Of a stretch of DNA of 64,000 bases, positions 20,001 through 64,000 are shown one piece after another. Numbering within the stretch: position 1 is the first letter of the stretch; each line of letters begins with the position of its first letter. The position numbers and the translations under genes are program-made. A model generated the notes under the pieces. The model saw only the letters and a list, made by a program, of their open reading frames with translations, was not told the DNA's origin and did not search any database. Source of the stretch: Eudorina sp. 2006-703-Eu-15. Its lineage: Eukaryota > Chlorophyta > Chlorophyceae > Chlamydomonadales > Volvocaceae. Location of the stretch: contig BDSI01000020.1 in the NCBI GenBank assembly GCA_003117195.1, positions 913,146-977,145 of the forward strand. Reading direction: 5' to 3'.

Positions 20001-23000
20001 ATCAACCCCTCCAGCCACCAACATGAGGTGGGTGAGGAGCGGCGGGGTGGGGTGAGGCTGTTTTGGAGGCGAAGGGGAGAGCCAGAAAGGGAAAGGACCA
20101 GCGCGGTGGTGGTAGTGGCGGTGCGGAGTGCGGAGCGCACCTCGCCTGTGGGCCCCTAACGTCGATGTCACATCGATAAGGAAAGCCACCGGATTCTCAA
20201 TAGCCAAAAACCCACTATGATGACCTTGGAAGATAGAACGCGGCAAAACAAAGGGACGACCGGACACGCTCAGTATCCATTGCGCCATCGCTGTGCCTCG
20301 AAAGCTGAAGAGAAATGCGCCAGGGCATGCACACATGTTTGTGTGTGTGATGAGAGCGAGTGTTTCTGACTTCCTGCCCTACTCTTAATCGAGCCCAACT
20401 CTGAACCCCGCTCTCTCCCCCTGTCCCGCCGGTCCCCAGATCGTGGCGGCCAGTGTGGTCCACCTGGCCGGGGTGTCCCCGGATGTGCCCTCCAGCGACT
20501 GGAGCTCGGGGGCGAGACTGCGGAACTTCAGCATAGTGCGGCGGCTGGACGGCCAGGCCTGGCCCCTGGGTAAGGCGGCGGAGGAATGGGCAAAGGAGCA
20601 GCAGTGGGCAAAGGGGAGGAGCGGGCAAAGGGGAGGAGCGGGCAAGGCAGCAGGAGTGGATAAGGGAGTAGGAGTGGCAAAGGAGCAGGAGTGGCAAAGG
20701 AACAGGAGTGGCAAAGGAGCAGGAGTGGGCAAGCGGGCCCAGCCAGAAGGGAGAGAGATATGTGCCGTGGCTCGACCTCCGCGGGTGCTGTCTTCAGCCG
20801 TGGGGAGATACCTGTCGGCCGGCGATCGGTGGCGCACTCGGCTTTGGGCACTGGACAACTCCGTGGGAGTGCAAGGACACTTTGCTCGTGTGTATGGAAG
20901 GAGGAGTGGGTCACGGCTTCCTGGCTCACATGTTTTGCCCTTGATGCGGACGCGGCGCAGGTCTGGAGGCGGCGGCTGCCGCCGAGAATGGTACACCCCG
21001 CGGGCGGGCCAACGGGGGCAATATGTGGACGTTGCAGACCTCGGAGCGTTCCCTGCTCACCTGCCTGCTGGCCAGGCTGCAGGTGGGCGTGGGACAGTAG
21101 GGGGAGGGGAGGGCGACGGCAGAGCATGGGGATGGATCCGGGGGCGGCTGGTTGGGAAAGGCGGATTTAGAAAGGGTTGGTGGATTGATGGAACGGCCGT
21201 AACGACGGGCCTCGACGCTGCGCCTGGGGAGGAAGGGGTACCTCAACACAGTTCTGAGGTACCCCTTCCTCCCCAGGCGCAGCGTCGAGGCCCGTCGTTA
21301 CGGCCACACAGTTCTGTCGGTGACCACTGCCGAGGTCAGCACGACCTGCCCGGTATCCTGGGTTGGAGTGAAGAGTTGACCAACCCTTCTGCACCAACCT
21401 GTCCACCCTGGTAGCAAATGCCCTCGACTGCAGTGTGCGGTCATGTTTCAACGAGAAACTCGCTCGAACCAGTCACGTGTGTGTCCCAACCCTCTGCCCA
21501 TTTACGCCTATCTACCATTTACGCCTACCTGCCGATTCACGGCCATCCCCGACACCTCCCCCACGCTCCTCCCGACATTGGGACTGCCCCCTTTTCCTGG
21601 ACAGACCCTGGACGCGGACGTGTTGGTTGGTCACAACGTCGCCGCATTCGACCTGACCACCCTGCTCACCCGCATGCAGCACCACAAGGTGGGGAGCTGG
21701 GCGGGCGAAGGTGCACGAGGAGGGGAGGTGGAACAGGGGGGAGTTGGAACAGGGGGAGGTGGAACAGGGTTGGATGAAACGGATGAAAGCGGAGGTTGTG
21801 GGGGAAGGCAGGTTCGCTAGGGAAAGGCAGGTTCAGCATCCAGTCGAGACACATAGTGAATCCCCGGGTCCCGCTGGGTGCACCGCTGGATTTGCAGCTC
21901 GTGCTACCTCTTGACACGACATGTGCGTGGTTGGACGGTTCCCGCAACCACTAGATTTGTACAAGGTACCTGGACGCGGCCACGGCTCACGTCGCACGCC
22001 GAGCTAACCGGCCCCTGCCACCCCTGCCACACCCTCAACCCCTTTCCTCCCTCGCCCCGACCCTCACCCGCACCCGCATCCCCTTAACCCCACCGCGGGC
22101 AGGTACCGCTGTGGAGCCGCATTGGGCGGGTCAAGAAGACCGAGTTCCCTCGCCTCACCGGAGGGGGCCATACATTCGGTGGAGGGGCGGGCGCGGGCGT
22201 CATGTCCACAATCGCAGGTGTGGTATGGATGTGAACGTGTGTCTGTGGTCGTGGGCATTCGCCTTAACTTGACCATCATTCGACTGCATTCCTGCTGCCT
22301 CCCGTGCTCGGCGACCCCACAATGCCCCCCTGCACCTCCCCTCCGGCTGCAGGCCGGCTGCTGTGCGACACGTACCTGTCTGCCCGCGAGCTGGTCAAGT
22401 CGGTGGACTTCACGTTGAGCACCCTGGCGGGCAGCCTGCTGGGTCAGACCCGCTCCGACCCGCTGGCGGAGGCGGGGCCGGGCGGGGGCGGCATCGCGGG
22501 CTGCTTCACCTCCGCGGAGGGGGTGGTGCGGCTGCTGAGGCACGGGGAGAGCGATGCGTGGCTGGCGCTGGGCATCATGTTCCACCTGTCGGGTGAGAGG
22601 AACGGGGTGGGATGGGATGGGATGGCCCCGCACGGCGGCGGGGAAATGAGGCGGAAGGGGGTTCTGCGCTATTGGGACGTCGCAGTTTGAGTAGAGGCTG
22701 GGTGGAGCTCAGGTGGAGTGCGTGCTGCGACCCACGGTGTGTTCAGACGCCCGGAATGCGAGGATGCGGCTTCCGTTTGCGTGTTTGTTAGGTTTCCCCA
22801 ACCATACGCAACACCATCGGAACACCGTTGTCTGGTTAATAGTGACGTCATATCCTCATTCCTTCTTGGCGCACCCCTGACAGTCGACAGCAGATTCACA
22901 CGCTGCCTGGGTCGCCCGCCCGCGCTTTGGCTCTCCGTCAGTTTGCACGCCAACTCCAACGCCCCCCTCCCCCTCATCCCCCTCTGGGCCGTGCAGTGCT

Positions 23001-26000
23001 GCCCCTGACCAAGCAGCTGTCCGTTCTGTCCGGCCAGCTGTGGAGCCGCACTCTGGCGGGTCAGAGGGCGCAGCGCATTGAGATGCTGCTGCTGCACGAG
23101 TTCCACCGCCGCAAGTTCATCACGCCGGACAAGCAGTCGTACAAGGTAGGGGACGGGGCAGGGCGCAATCTGGGCTTGGTTCGGCGACTGTTCTGAGGAT
23201 GGCGGCGTTCCACGGATGGGCATCGCACTTCGCAGCGCATCGCAGCGCACCTCGCGCGGGGCGCTGGTCTTTCGGGTGAGGGATCCGCCTGACCTGTTGA
23301 TTCTCCTTGTGAATGGGTAGGACAAGCAGCGGAAGCAGCAGGCGGAGGTGGAGGCGGAGGATTTCGAGGGGCCCCCGGGAGACGATGACGGTGAGGACGG
23401 TGGCGGTGGCGGCAAGAAGGGCAAGAAGGGCGCCGCCGCCGCCGCCGCCAAATCCAACGGCCCCAAGTACAGTGGAGGGCTGGTTCTGGAGCCCAAGAAG
23501 GGGCTGTACGACAAGATTGTCATCATTCTGGATTTCAACTCGCTGTACCCTTCCATTATCCAGGTATGCCGCACGACACATGTCACGACGCAGGTTACGA
23601 TTGGCATGTTGTAGATCGCTCAGGATGCCACCTAGGACCGTAACGGCGGGGCTGAAACGCGACAAAGCATCCAGCCCAATGGGGTCGGTCACTTTGTCTC
23701 GCCCTGTCTCATTCTTTCCAGCCTGTGCCGAACGTCCCTGTCTCATTCTTTCCAGCCTGTGCCGAACGTCCCTTCTTGCGCCGACCGCGGTCTCTCGAAT
23801 CACCTCGCCACCTGCGGATAACTTCATTACCTACCGATCAGCAAGACTCACCCTGACCCGCCGACCCACCCACCCACAAAGTCGTTCCCCTTCTCATCTT
23901 CGGTCGGCGACACCTCAGGAGTACAACATCTGCTTCACGACGGTTCAGCGCCCCGCGGACGGCTCCCTGCCGCCGCTGCCCGACCCCGGCACCGCTGCCA
24001 ACGGGCTGGCGCCGCTGCCCGCGGTGCTGCAGGGCCTGGTGCAGCGCCGCAAGCAGGTGCGGCCCCGGCCCGGTCCCGGGATGGGGGCCGCCCGCCTCCA
24101 GTCCTCCGTCCTTCGACCCGCCTCCTGCGACCTACCACGTGCCTCGTTCGCGCTGTATCGTGCGCATACAAGCAGGAAACTAGTGCTTTGCGGCTGCGTC
24201 ATCCTCCCTTGCGTCCCACGTGCGCGTCATACGGCACCTGGCGGGAGGTGCGGTATTGGCCTCTTATGCCCCATGGATGCATGCCGCCTCGTTGGGCGCC
24301 ATCCTGAGAATCCTCACGAAGTCCGGCGGGATGCCGTCAGCTGGGTGGTTCGCTTCATGCCATGTCATGTCATGTCATGTATCACTGATGGCAAACGTTA
24401 GGGTTAGCTCCATGTAACTCCCTCCACAATTCATCAGCTCGTCTCTTTTCATCCGTGTTTTCCGTAAACCCCTCCTCTTTCTCCGACCCCTTTGCCCCTC
24501 CGCAGGTGAAGCAGGCCATGGCCAAGGAGCGTAACCCGCTGACTCGGCAGCAGCTGCAGGTACGGCAGCAGGCCATCAAGCTGACGGCCAACTCAATGTA
24601 CGGCTGCCTGGGTTTCGGAGCCAGCCGCTTCTACGCCCAGCCTCTGGCCGAGCTGATCACGGCGCAGGGCCGCTCCATTCTGAGCTCCACGGTGGACCTG
24701 GTGCAGGGGAGCATCGGGGCGGAGGTGAGGGCGGGGGTAAACATTTTTGGGGGGCGGAAAGAGAGATGCTGTCGTGCGGTGTGGATTGCGCAATTGCGTA
24801 CGGACGCATGGGCACGTGGGCTTGCAAGGCAACATGTGGGTGTGGGTGGGCGCGTGTGGTGGAGCCGCATAGCCCAGTCAAGACGCACTCTTAAGCGCCC
24901 TCCCCTCCCAACTCGCGCAGGTGATTTACGGCGACACGGATTCCATCATGGTGGCCACCCGCAGTGACTCGGTGGCGGAGGCCCGGGTCCTGGGCGACAA
25001 CATCAAGAGGGAGGTCAACAAACGATACAAGTGCGTTGGGGTGTGCGGGCGGGGAAGGGCAGCAGGAGGGTGGTTGAGCGGGCGCAGAGAAGGAGCAGCG
25101 GGCGCACCGGGAGAGGGAGGCGGGCAAGTAAGCACCAGATCTCAGCGGCGCCAGATCTGACCCCCTCCCCGTTGCGCCCGCGCCCTCACCGCCCACCCCG
25201 CCTGACCCCTGTTCAGGCTCCTGGAGATTGAGCTGGACGGCATCTTCCGCTCCATCCTGCTGCTCAAGAAGAAAAAATACGCGGCCATGAAGCTCGATCT
25301 CACTGTGGACGGAAAGCTGGTGGAGGTGAGCGGGGCGGGAAGGGATGCAGGACGAGGAGGCGAGGGGGCCGGACAGGAGCTCTCGGGATGCTTGTGTGGG
25401 TATGTCTCGGAGGGCTGGGAATAGTGGGGGCCCACTCAGGGCAGGGGCGGGGGATCAGAAACCAGAGAATGCAATGTAAGGCTGTCGCAGCACGCATGCG
25501 CAAAGTTATCAGGAGTAACGGAGTCCAAAGCGGCAAAAAAGCGTAATCCCCACAGCCATCCCCTCCGCGGCACCTACCATGCCCCAATGGTGCCCCTTGC
25601 ATTCAACCAGCCCGTCGCAGCCTGTTGTCATCGTTGCCCACGATGCCCGCATCGTGCGCTCAGCGCCCAGCCCCGCCCTGCCCCGGTCCCCCGCCCCCCG
25701 GCCCCCCGTGTGCCTTCAGGTTATGGAGCAGAAGGGTCTGGACATCGTTCGCCGCGACTGGTGCCCGCTGTCCAAGGACGAGGGCAACTTCGCCCTGGCC
25801 GCCATCCTCAGCAGCCGCAACCGGGAGGAGGTGGTGGCGGAGATACATGCGCACCTGCGGCAGACGGGGGAGAAGCTGCGGGCGGGGCAGGTGGGCACTG
25901 CATGTGGGAGGTGGGGGCGGCGGTGCTGGTGTTGTTGGCAGTGGGGCGCGAGCGATGCGACGATGCGTGGCCTCCCAGTCCCGGCGGACGCTGGCGCATT

Positions 26001-35790: not shown

Positions 35791-38700
35791 TTACTTGCTG
35801 GCAGCCGCCCGCTTGCGTGCGAACGTCTCAGCGATGGCGTCCATGAACGGCTCCGTGTTCAGGTACTGGTCGGGGGTGACCTTGCTGGTGCCGTGCACGC
35901 AGACGGCCAAGTCCTTGGTCATATTGCCCGCCTCGATCGTCTCAACCACCGCGGCCTCCAGATCCTGGTGGTATGGGGGGCAGGCGCGCAGGGGAGTGAG
36001 AGGGGAAGGAGCGAGATGCAGGCCCGCGCGAATTTCAGCAAGGCGCGAGCTGGGGGCGGTGGGGGTTTAAACGGGATGGATAAGACGGGCGAAAGGAATC
36101 AGCAGCGCGAAGGGCGCAAGGACGGCGGCTCAGCGGGTGCTGATGGGACAGCGGGTAGGCCGCGCAATACCCTCGAAATACAGGACAGGCGGCCCCACAG
36201 TTGCCGGTGCGCACCGGCACCGGACTCAACCCCCAGCCCTGACGGCCTGGCTCCTGTGTGATGTGCAGCTCCAGCGGCGGCTTACAGTGGGCTGCCTCAG
36301 CATCGTCAACCGAGCTACTCACATGCAGCATCCGGGCTACCCAAGGACACAGCGACCAGCCCGCTGGCATCCACCAACGTTGCACTGGCAGGGGCACGCG
36401 CATAAAGGTAACAATGAGCTGCGGTGCGCCGCCCGCTCACGCAGCATGCAAGCCCTCAAGCCCAGAGCCCTTCCCTTCCTGGAGCGCAACCGCCTCCTGT
36501 CCGCCTCCGAAGGGCGATAACTTCCCCCCTACACAAACACACACACACACACACAAACGCACAAACGCGCTGCCCGCCTCACGTTGCACCACTGGATGAG
36601 CTCCTGGTTGCCGTCCAGCTTCCCCCGGTGCGCCAGACCGCGGGTCCAAGCGAAGATGGACGCCACCGGGTTGGTGCTGGTGGGCTTGCCTTTCTGGAAC
36701 TCACGCCAGTGGCGGGTGACAGTGCCTGGCGCCGCAACCGACAAGGGCGGGACGGGCACCGGGGACCGAAGTGAGGGGACCGCCGAGTAGTTTGTGGGTG
36801 GACAGCGCGGGGCCGCAAAGTGCCCGGAAAAGCATGGTCAACTCAGCGGAGGCGGTTGCAGCCCTTTGCCATCTTGACACGACCACGAGTCATCGCGCTT
36901 GCCAGACCGCCAGAACACGCCAGAACCGCCAGAACCGCCTTGCAGACTCAGTTCTCTCGGGCGCGCCTCCCATGCCGACGCCACTCGACCCGGCCCTCGT
37001 CCGTTACACCGACAGACCACCCACCCACCGTGCGCCGCCTCCGCCTCCACCGTCTTGCCGTCCGGGGTGACGAGGACACTGGTCATGAGGCCCAGGGAGC
37101 CGTAGCCCTGAGCCACGATGTCCGACTGCACGTCACCGTCGTAATTCTTGCACGCCCACACGAAGCCGCCATTTGACTTGAGCGCCTGCGATTGGTGGTG
37201 ATGGGTGGCGGCGGCAAGCCGGTGGTGATTATAGAATCGTGCGACGGAGGAAGTGGCAGGGCGTAAGTTGATAGGCTGCCCCGAAATGCGGTGGATAGCA
37301 GTGCCAGAGGCTGGAAAGCTCCCGGAATGGGCTGCACGCAACAACAGAAATGCACGTGGAGTCATGCAACCCTGCGATTCTAGGAGACCAGAGCGTTGTG
37401 GCTGCGACCCAGATCACATATACACGTCATCACGTGTACAGATCTCGAGATTCGACGTGTGAATTTTACAAGCGACCACACACAGACTGCCACGCTAGTA
37501 CTGCAGAAACACTCACTTTTAAGCCACGACGCGTATCGTACTAAGTCCATTCAGTACACACCGGATGAGCATTCACCCCGTTGTCCGTCCCAATGACCCA
37601 CGGGTCTGCGGGAGTGTGCCGCCTCACCTGTGCGACCATGTCGTCAATCAGTCGGTGCTCGTACCAGATGCCCAACTCCTCGTACTGCTTTTTGTACTGC
37701 GCCTCGTAGATCTCCGCAAAGATCTGCAAGAACCTGGGGACAACAAGGGCAGCAGCGGCAGCCGGGGGAGCACCGCCACCCACGTGACTCCGGGTGTCTA
37801 TAGGTTGCCTTACCTTGCATGCCTCTACGAGCGGCAGCACCAGCCGTACCCCAACCATGCACGCACAGGCGACGTTCCCCTCCCTCCCTGGGTCGAACCC
37901 CACACTCGGCGTCAAGAGCGCTGTCATGCCGCGTTACTGGCTCGTCGGCTATCATGGAAGTAACGCACCAACACTGGTGTTGGTGCGGTACGGCTGTGAT
38001 AGCCGACGAGCCAGTACCGCGGCATGACAGCATGATCGACCCCACATGACTGGTGTGCACACTGCCCACTTGGATGCACCTTCGTATGGCGTCTCAACAT
38101 GCGGCGTCGTGATTCGTACAATCCAAATGCACACAACACACACACACACACATACACACACGAGAAGGGCCACCGCACCTGCCATCGTACGCCTTGAGGA
38201 TCGTGTTCTTAGTGGAAAGGTACAGCGGCCACTTCTTCTGGAGGGCGTACTCGAAGCACGAGTACCCGAAACCGCGAATCGACTCCTCCGTGTTGTACAT
38301 GCCCATGGCGACACCCGCGCCCTGCAGGCAGAGTCGGGGACACGTGCCGGGAGGAACCGAGCAGCTCAGCAGGGGCGGGCAGTTGTTGTTTCGAAACCAG
38401 TCCGCCAACGGAAACCCACAATAGTGATGTTGCGACTGAGCTGTCAGAGCGACACGCAACGCTGCGAGCATGCCCCTCTCGCCTATCAAGACCGGGGCAT
38501 GCATTTGGGTCCTCAGGCCCTCTTCACCGCGGGGTAGTCCTCAATTGCCGTGCGGAGTTGTGCTCTCCGCGTGGCTTGCCACATGCTGGGGTACTCGATG
38601 GATTTTATTTAGGACGATTTTGAGCCTGCCATCCAGTATGGCTTGAATCCCTCGCCACAACATCTGGTGCGGTGCCCCGACACTTGATGTGGCCGAGCAC

Positions 38701-62600: not shown

Positions 62601-64000
62601 CAAGCACCGTTCTCATGAGTGTTGCGCGGGCGCGTGTGCAATACTGGTTGTCGTGTGTTGTGTTGTGTCTAGGAAAAGGACCCAGATGTTGTGTCTAGGA
62701 AAAGGACCCAGATGTTGTGTCTAGGAGAAGACCCAGAGGACGCGCCTGTATGTGCGCGCGTTTGCCACTTGTGTGCTTGCCGTGCATGCAAGAGGGGTGT
62801 CGGGCATGTGCGGCTTGAAAACCCAGACGTGAGGGAAAGGGACCCCGCCCGACCCAGCCCACGTGCGGACATGCTCAGATGTGTGCGTGTGTGCAACTCC
62901 GTCTCCTGCCCTCAGGGCGTCTTCCGCGGGCGGCCGCTGATGCACACCCAGCGCAAGCCGGGTGAGCTTCTGGAGCTGCACACGGGGCAGAACCTGGAGC
63001 TTACGCCGCCGCCCCACCAGGTGCGACCGCACACACCCGCGGCTCGGGCGGGTCTCCTCTCTGACACACCTGCGGGTGCTCGGAGCCGTGGATAGATATC
63101 TCACACGACGTGTGTGACACATGGGATTCAACATGCATGCGTGTAGGGTGTTATTGTCTAGGTTGTCATTGTGTATTGGTGTATGTGTCGCCGGGCGTCC
63201 TTGCAGGAAGTTGCCTCCCGCGCTCGCTAAGGGTGTGCGTCCCCCGGGGGCCTGCCCGCGGGAATGTGCAAGGTGCCGAATGTGCCTGGTGCCATGTCGC
63301 CCCGCGGGCGACATGGCACCAGGCACATTCGCCGGCCGCCCTCACACCGCCACCCTCAGCCGCCCACCATCCCGCCCGCCCGCCGGCAAGCGATCTCCGC
63401 ACATCCCCGCACCGCTCCCACACAGCCTACGGTACACGATAGCGCCCACCGCACAGGCCCCGCGCACGTCCAGTGTCGTGGCCCCCGCCTTTCTCTGCGC
63501 ATACGGTACCCCATGCCGCCCGTGGGGAACCCCCCGCCCGCTCCCCGTGCGTCACTCGATGACAGGTGATCATACCGCTGGCGCTGGCGGCCCCGACTAG
63601 CCCCCAGCAGGGCCCCGCAACCCGCCGCGGCCGCAACCAATCGGAAGCCCGCTGGTCCGCCCCCAGCGGCGACACCGTCGCCTGCGGCTCCGCCATTGCC
63701 GGCGGCCCTGCCGGCGCCATGGGTCGCAACTTCCGCTCTGTCACCGTCGGCGCCGCCGGCGACGGCGGCGTCGGCGCCGCTGACGGCGGCACCGACGGTG
63801 ACGGCGACGGCGGCCGCGCGGCGTCACGTACCGATCGCAGCGACGTCAGCTCCTTGTGGAATATGACAGACAACAGCTACAGCGGCGGTGATGGCGGCGG
63901 CGGGACGGCGGCGGCCGGCAGTAGCACTTGGGGCGGCGCGCTGCTGCGACACGTGCGCGACTCGGACAGTGGCGGCGGCAGTCATGACGGTGGCGACCAG
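59635..64000 (+). CDS. Cys-rich multi-pass membrane protein (3' end beyond window)
   Basis: I do not recognise the family. Seven exons join in phase: 59635-59916, 60362-60455, 60931-61036, 61386-61495, 62078-62172, 62916-63020 and 63566 to the edge. The ATG follows an in-frame TGA two codons upstream. Residues about 50-85 are extremely Cys-rich (for example CCSCFCCECCADCCCKCC), suggesting metal binding or palmitoylation near the membrane. Hydrophobic helices follow: a weak one at about 95-112, then LLIHLLVFWWLYCLTGIVG (about 127-146), ILMARVYLGLNLLCAVCHV (about 163-181) and IFLTFLPLVWDWYIVYLAW (about 200-218). A basic KLKEQRK follows the last helix. The C-terminal part is Gly/Asp/Ser-rich and probably disordered and cytosolic. 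A four-helix topology is inferred; transport or signalling roles cannot be assigned. Confidence 0.7.
62661..62736 (+). repeat. 26-bp tandem repeat, three copies
   Basis: Three head-to-tail copies of a unit beginning TGTTGTGTCTAGGAAAAGGA lie in intron 5 of the membrane-protein gene. The third copy has two changes. Confidence 0.85.
63277..63331. repeat. Perfect 26-bp inverted repeat in an intron
   Basis: Arms 63277-63302 and 63306-63331 are perfect reverse complements with a CGC loop, inside intron 6 (63021-63565) of the membrane-protein gene. The outer ends read CGAATGTGCC and GGCACATTCG. The RNA would fold into a 26-bp, very GC-rich hairpin. Confidence 0.9.

Follow-up and report, generated by a model that had tools for sequence, protein, structure and literature searches.

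Local fold-back insertions at DNA breaks in yeast span 2 to about 150 bp, most of them being shorter than 14 bp, and involve Pol delta and end joining, with the other end captured through 0-5 bp of microhomology (PMC11724301). For human Pol theta, two terminal base pairs are enough for the extension of a stem-loop, through which inverted repeats can enter the joined products (PMC11292364). Breaks with 3′ overhangs can also give small tandem duplications by fill-in, in which CST-Pol alpha-primase takes part (PMC8355091). Among the volvocine relatives, introns (nine) or UTRs (two) are the source of 61.1% of the high-confidence microRNAs of Chlamydomonas; splicing and processing of an intronic precursor proceed independently, and the intron-derived microRNAs leave the abundance of the host mRNA unchanged (PMC4817775). 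The AGO3-bound microRNAs of Volvox, in turn, are not conserved in Chlamydomonas (PMC5093975).

The hairpin described here lies in an intron of the gene for the catalytic subunit of DNA polymerase alpha (POLA1), within a 64-kb stretch of DNA, hereafter the window. The features of the locus, all on the + strand, are the following.

20961-21082 (+): POLA1 exon 5′ of the intron; the exon join and PF03104 support its 3′ end, and its 5′ end was read by eye
21083-21604 (+): POLA1 intron with the hairpin, delimited by its length, GT...AG ends and the exon join
21172-21181 (+): probably incidental left part, AAGGGTTGGT, of an outer inverted match; its partner in the predicted fold is 21379-21388
21195-21245 (+): arm 1 of the perfect inverted repeat, putative copy source; ends with CA, the likely priming site
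21246-21254 (+): loop, ACACAGTTC, the first of two direct-repeat copies, identical to 21306-21314
21255-21305 (+): arm 2, putatively copied anew from arm 1 in reverse; its first letters are TG
21306-21316 (+): second loop copy with TG, ACACAGTTCTG, the putative point of rejoining the old intron; 11-nt repeat with 21246-21256
21379-21388 (+): right part of the outer match, ACCAACCCTT, probably incidental; paired in the predicted fold, such pairs being common
21605-21688 (+): 28-residue segment of the POLA1 exon 3′ of the intron, from alignment and Pfam matches across the join

The two arms, 9 nt apart, are exact reverse complements (51/51), and the whole hairpin measures 111 nt. An identical second copy of the loop stands directly behind arm 2, and the TG next to it lengthens the direct repeat to 11 nt (21246-21256 vs 21306-21316); its leftward extension is 0 nt. 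Both the perfect 51-bp arms around a 9-nt loop and the recurrence of the loop sequence right after the second arm had been seen in the original prediction, and both are exact; a single fold-back event, however, was not deduced there from the repeated loop. Perfect inverted repeats with loops no longer than 60 nt reached at most 11-12 nt in eight order-3 Markov sequences of 64 kb each, modelled on the window. A perfect hairpin of 51 nt is far beyond chance.

The intron is 522 nt long, in phase 0, and the hairpin begins 112 nt into it, in the sense orientation. When the exon ends are joined at 21082/21605, a join made by eye, the product gives a gapless 41-residue alignment with solved chains of DNA polymerase alpha (best E 1.8e-4), and all 12 of the 12 distinct sequences listed are named as the DNA polymerase alpha catalytic subunit. 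The Pfam domain DNA_pol_B_exo1 (PF03104) spans the join, with DNA_pol_alpha_N matching an upstream piece and DNA_pol_B a downstream piece. The gapless alignment and the Pfam matches thus bear out the earlier placing of the hairpin in a POLA1 intron. In a comparison with 118 proteins, with candidates limited to 0.55-1.75 times the query length, the nearest named protein to the rough exon join was that of Astrephomene gubernaculifera (70% identity over 65% of the query, with a second piece at 90% over 18%). This agrees with the green alga of the original prediction, and we take the host organism, judged by these similarities, to be a volvocine green alga. Two further repeats are found in the same gene. 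A degenerate 17-nt tandem repeat (20580-20732) occupies part of the neighbouring intron, immediately behind a POLA1 exon, and a perfect 34-nt tandem repeat of 2.1 copies (23702-23773) may have arisen recently by tandem duplication at a staggered break.

The history of the intron was approached with a four-point model, in which a solver writes the present intron as a prefix, the reverse complement of a source and a suffix. If 60 nt are removed, that is, one loop and arm 2, the remaining empty site can be turned back into the present locus by one event, the reverse copying of adjacent sequence, as is characteristic of fold-back or template-switch insertions. There are three equivalent one-event solutions, of 49, 50 and 51 nt, and in all three the source is arm 1 and the return is at 21246. 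They differ by the CA at the end of arm 1 and the TG after the loop, so this 2-nt microhomology at the switch, which is short and weak evidence when taken alone, may represent a fold-back primer of two base pairs. Microhomology at the second junction is 0. With arm 2 as the source and the mirror empty site as the start, the solver found no one-event solution; arm 2 as the original is rejected, since one event suffices in that direction only if the 9-nt repeat already flanked arm 2. Removal of either arm alone likewise admits one-event solutions, given a pre-existing 9-nt direct repeat. On the preferred model, the ancestral intron would have been the 60-nt-shorter empty site, 462 nt in length, with one ACACAGTTCTG.

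The empty site contains no special quasi-palindrome that might have served as a seed: its fold (-1.5 kcal/mol) is equalled or bettered by 82.5% of 2000 shuffles and by 77.2% of 1599 background windows. Because it folds no better than most shuffles, the classical bacterial variant, which starts from a pre-existing quasi-palindrome, is rejected.

The hairpin is most likely a young fold-back (template-switch) insertion, made probably at a staggered break. That it arose by fold-back copying, be it at a broken end or at a replication fork, appears highly probable; for the broken end in particular our confidence is moderate. We propose that a break left a 9-11-nt 3′ overhang, ACACAGTTC(TG), and that the DNA end ...ACACAGTTCTG-3′ folded back on itself and primed on the 2-nt CA/TG match. 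About 49 nt of the neighbouring strand would then have been copied to give arm 2, after which the copied end would have been rejoined at the start of the loop and the other side filled in, leaving the loop present twice. Both the event and its direction, from arm 1 to arm 2, are reconstructed, and the acting polymerase is a matter of inference. A lesion of this kind, with 9-11-nt 3′ overhangs and the other side filled in, would explain why the return point falls exactly at the edge of the loop; it is solely by this plausibility argument that the exact return favours a staggered break. The combination of fold-back on one side with fill-in on the other is our own suggestion. The chemistry is known and the mutation is of a known kind; the place is new.

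In its inverted copy of the adjoining sequence, its compatibility with a 2-bp primer and its lack of microhomology at the second junction, the locus is like the fold-back insertions attributed to yeast Pol delta and to Pol theta, as these are presented in the available parts of PMC11724301 and PMC11292364. The length copied also falls within the yeast range of 2 to about 150 bp, although it exceeds that of most yeast insertions (<14 bp), so that 49-51 nt is long for the class, which counts against the broken-end route (PMC11724301). The loop is 9 nt in the POLA1 intron vs 41 nt at the yeast locus, and it is duplicated, unlike in the yeast insertions as far as the available text of PMC11724301 describes them, which suggests that the other end was filled in. 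A direct repeat of 9-11 nt around an inserted unit is likewise the arrangement of the fill-in tandem duplications, although in the POLA1 intron the repeats are separated by a 51-nt inverted copy, unlike those in the corresponding part of PMC8355091.

In the original prediction, the perfect identity of the arms was taken to mean either a very recent origin or selection on pairing. The first part stands as the simplest reading; the second is not needed, since fold-back itself gives perfect pairing and one copying event suffices. With 0 mismatches in 51 pairs, the 95% upper bound on arm divergence is 5.7%, provided that the arms have not been refreshed since.

The same product, and the same empty site, would be expected if a nascent strand at a replication fork switched to itself or to the sister strand, copied arm 1 in reverse and returned to its template, all without a break. 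This is a possible origin, which we hold only tentatively. It accords with the exact fit of the four-point model and with the perfect hairpins made by template switching in other lineages (PMC8794818). In great apes, as reported in the available text of PMC7954356, the longest copy is 128 nt, and the order seen in the POLA1 intron, with point 4 before point 1, is said to be that of many events; the median copied length there is, however, 12 nt, and this order of points requires reopening of the new duplex. Nor does a fork switch predict a return point exactly at the loop edge. The locus is like the short-range template-switch mutations of these two studies in that one four-point event makes a hairpin in one step, its length being within the great-ape maximum of 128 (PMC7954356, PMC8794818). 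It is unlike them in that the event is read without an ancestral sequence for comparison, and it differs from the sets in the accessible portions of both studies in that point 4 adjoins point 2, so that the whole loop is repeated. A single locus cannot tell the broken-end route from the fork route. Sequences can be scanned for the duplicated loop as a signature, which may separate hairpins made at breaks from those made at forks.

A fold-back chimera built into the consensus would be a technical source for such a structure, and some redundant sequence does occur in the assembly, namely in L034 and L035 (contigs C176 and C3007), in which most listed reading frames are common to both over 3.1 kb. 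A second copy of the POLA1 locus of this kind was not reported in the assembly searches. Behind arm 2, an 11-nt overlap leads back into the same intron, and the sequence continues to a splice site and the correct exon, as the end of a chimeric read would not, and the window has no N at all. An artefact is therefore very unlikely. In the same assembly, L033 (G000:C211:90619-91380) has a RuBisCO large-chain domain match in a frame listed as open over 3496 aa, at a GC content of 69.5%, which is odd for an algal nuclear genome; the contig is perhaps a contaminant.

The long terminal-inverted-repeat shape of the hairpin would suit a foldback transposon or MITE whose terminal inverted repeats were 51 nt long, a foldback transposon having been the main alternative in the original prediction, and the window does contain a repetitive inverted repeat at 37920-38031. 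This last consists of 55-nt arms with 6 mismatches, 2 nt apart, one arm of which belongs to a repeat family; it is probably the head-to-head ends of a mobile element. The whole assembly (181,203,499 bases in 3033 contigs) was searched by a method that skips very common words and scores the best candidates only, and within this sensitivity the 220-nt region around the POLA1 hairpin matched nothing but itself, in direct and in inverted orientation. A genome-wide search with one arm, for which the original prediction had called, returned self matches only when made with arm 1 and the loop at E up to 10, thus pointing to neither a repeat family nor a target in trans. The same search with the 37920-38031 inverted repeat, as a positive control, gave 46 matches, of which 44 lie at other places in the assembly, so a family would show where one exists. 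No target-site duplication was found around the 111-nt hairpin, where adjoining direct repeats do not exceed 2 nt; the 9-nt repeats surround arm 2 alone, and arm 2 has a terminal inverted repeat of 0 nt. Since no second copy was reported and a flanking target-site duplication is missing, the transposon is rejected as extremely improbable.

The weaker outer inverted match, which had suggested such an element, does exist, and AAGGGTTGGT and ACCAACCCTT do pair in the predicted fold. It carries little weight, however, because the two parts do not adjoin the arms and because perfect 10-nt inverted pairs are common: the window has 114 with start distances of 10-250 nt, overlapping words included. 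Its role as part of an element is accordingly rejected. A viral source is also rejected, as one 30-nt piece of arm 1 had no exact match among viral contigs, a set from which records of or near this genome may have been excluded. A second haplotype lacking the insertion was not found, the 756 nt before the hairpin matching only themselves and a 48-nt stretch on contig C106. Elsewhere in the window, at 63277-63331, a second perfect hairpin with 26-nt arms and a 3-nt loop adjoins a degenerate tandem repeat. It too is reported at a single place in the assembly; its loop is not duplicated, and it is possibly another fold-back insertion.

What would the POLA1 hairpin do once transcribed? The prediction is that it becomes part of the POLA1 transcript, forms a stable double-stranded stem there and is removed with the intron; Dicer-type enzymes could cut the predicted stem. 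A functional microRNA precursor would go further, one strand of a Dicer-like cut being loaded into Argonaute and the pairing being kept by selection. This reading concerns function and is compatible with either origin, and we consider it improbable. The predicted RNA fold of the 220 nt around the hairpin is very stable (-171.6 kcal/mol, z -17.97 vs 200 shuffles), a stable stem-loop being one of the characters of a microRNA precursor. The sense orientation in an intron is that of nine high-confidence Chlamydomonas microRNAs (PMC4817775). Seven Piwi-domain matches, five of them above the cut-off, lie on contigs C117 and C75, so Argonaute genes are likely. RNase III and Dicer-dimer domains were not found in the searches, these being weak negatives, as exons are split and the Dicer-dimer search was silent in control genomes too.

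Against a microRNA, the window has 0 Rfam matches at the gathering score, and a known RNA family is thus rejected; no tRNAs were found in the window. At E up to 1 there are 33 sub-threshold matches, mostly to unrelated microRNA families, such as any long perfect stem draws; the best score is that of MIR1858 (70.8 bits vs a cut-off of 137), and the match closest to its own cut-off is mir-3102 (52.5 vs 61 bits). Arm 1 with the loop has no trans match in the assembly at E up to 10, and the origin alone accounts for the perfect pairing. The hairpin is like the intron-derived microRNAs of Chlamydomonas, a volvocine relative, in lying in the sense orientation within a coding gene's intron. It is unlike those in the available part of PMC4817775 in its perfect 51-nt stem, in having no family at cut-off and in being known from sequence alone. 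We expect it to have no selected function at present.

A newborn hairpin would nevertheless be plausible raw material for small-RNA genes. Point mutation hardly reaches long perfect stems, and the POLA1 intron presents what is likely a birth in one step. The hairpin is thus ordinary in kind, yet its birth is instructive, and it offers a concrete test of how small-RNA genes might begin. It is tempting to propose that staggered-break fold-back repair recurrently makes perfect intronic hairpins in volvocine algae, marked by a loop duplicated behind arm 2, and so feeds a fast-turning stock of intron-derived small RNAs, the POLA1 hairpin being a newborn caught before its first mismatch. We regard this wider proposal as speculative and rather unlikely. 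Within the scope of the literature search, to which subscription journals mostly do not belong, nothing was found that joins template-switch mutation with miRNA, and no study of template-switch hairpins in algal nuclear genomes was apparent, among the papers listed, from titles and the openings of abstracts.

A background sample of 24 stretches of 10 kb (240 kb, about 0.13% of the assembly) was scanned for comparison. With the arm length set at 14 nt or more and the loop at no more than 60 nt, perfect inverted repeats were seen in it at five places (L007, L010, L012, L019 and L025), their arms measuring 14-16 nt; this count leaves out simple repeats, namely TA (L008 and L012, with a longest arm of 40 nt), TGC-type (L009, longest 17 nt) and CGG (L013). 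The succession arm, loop, arm, loop, scanned for with arms of at least 8 nt and loops of 5-60 nt and with low-complexity arms or loops excluded, was absent from 10 simulated 64-kb sequences. It is rare in the 240-kb sample and the window, where it gave five rows: the POLA1 locus and four rows at two places (L006 and L009), these four consisting of a recurring self-palindromic 8-mer.
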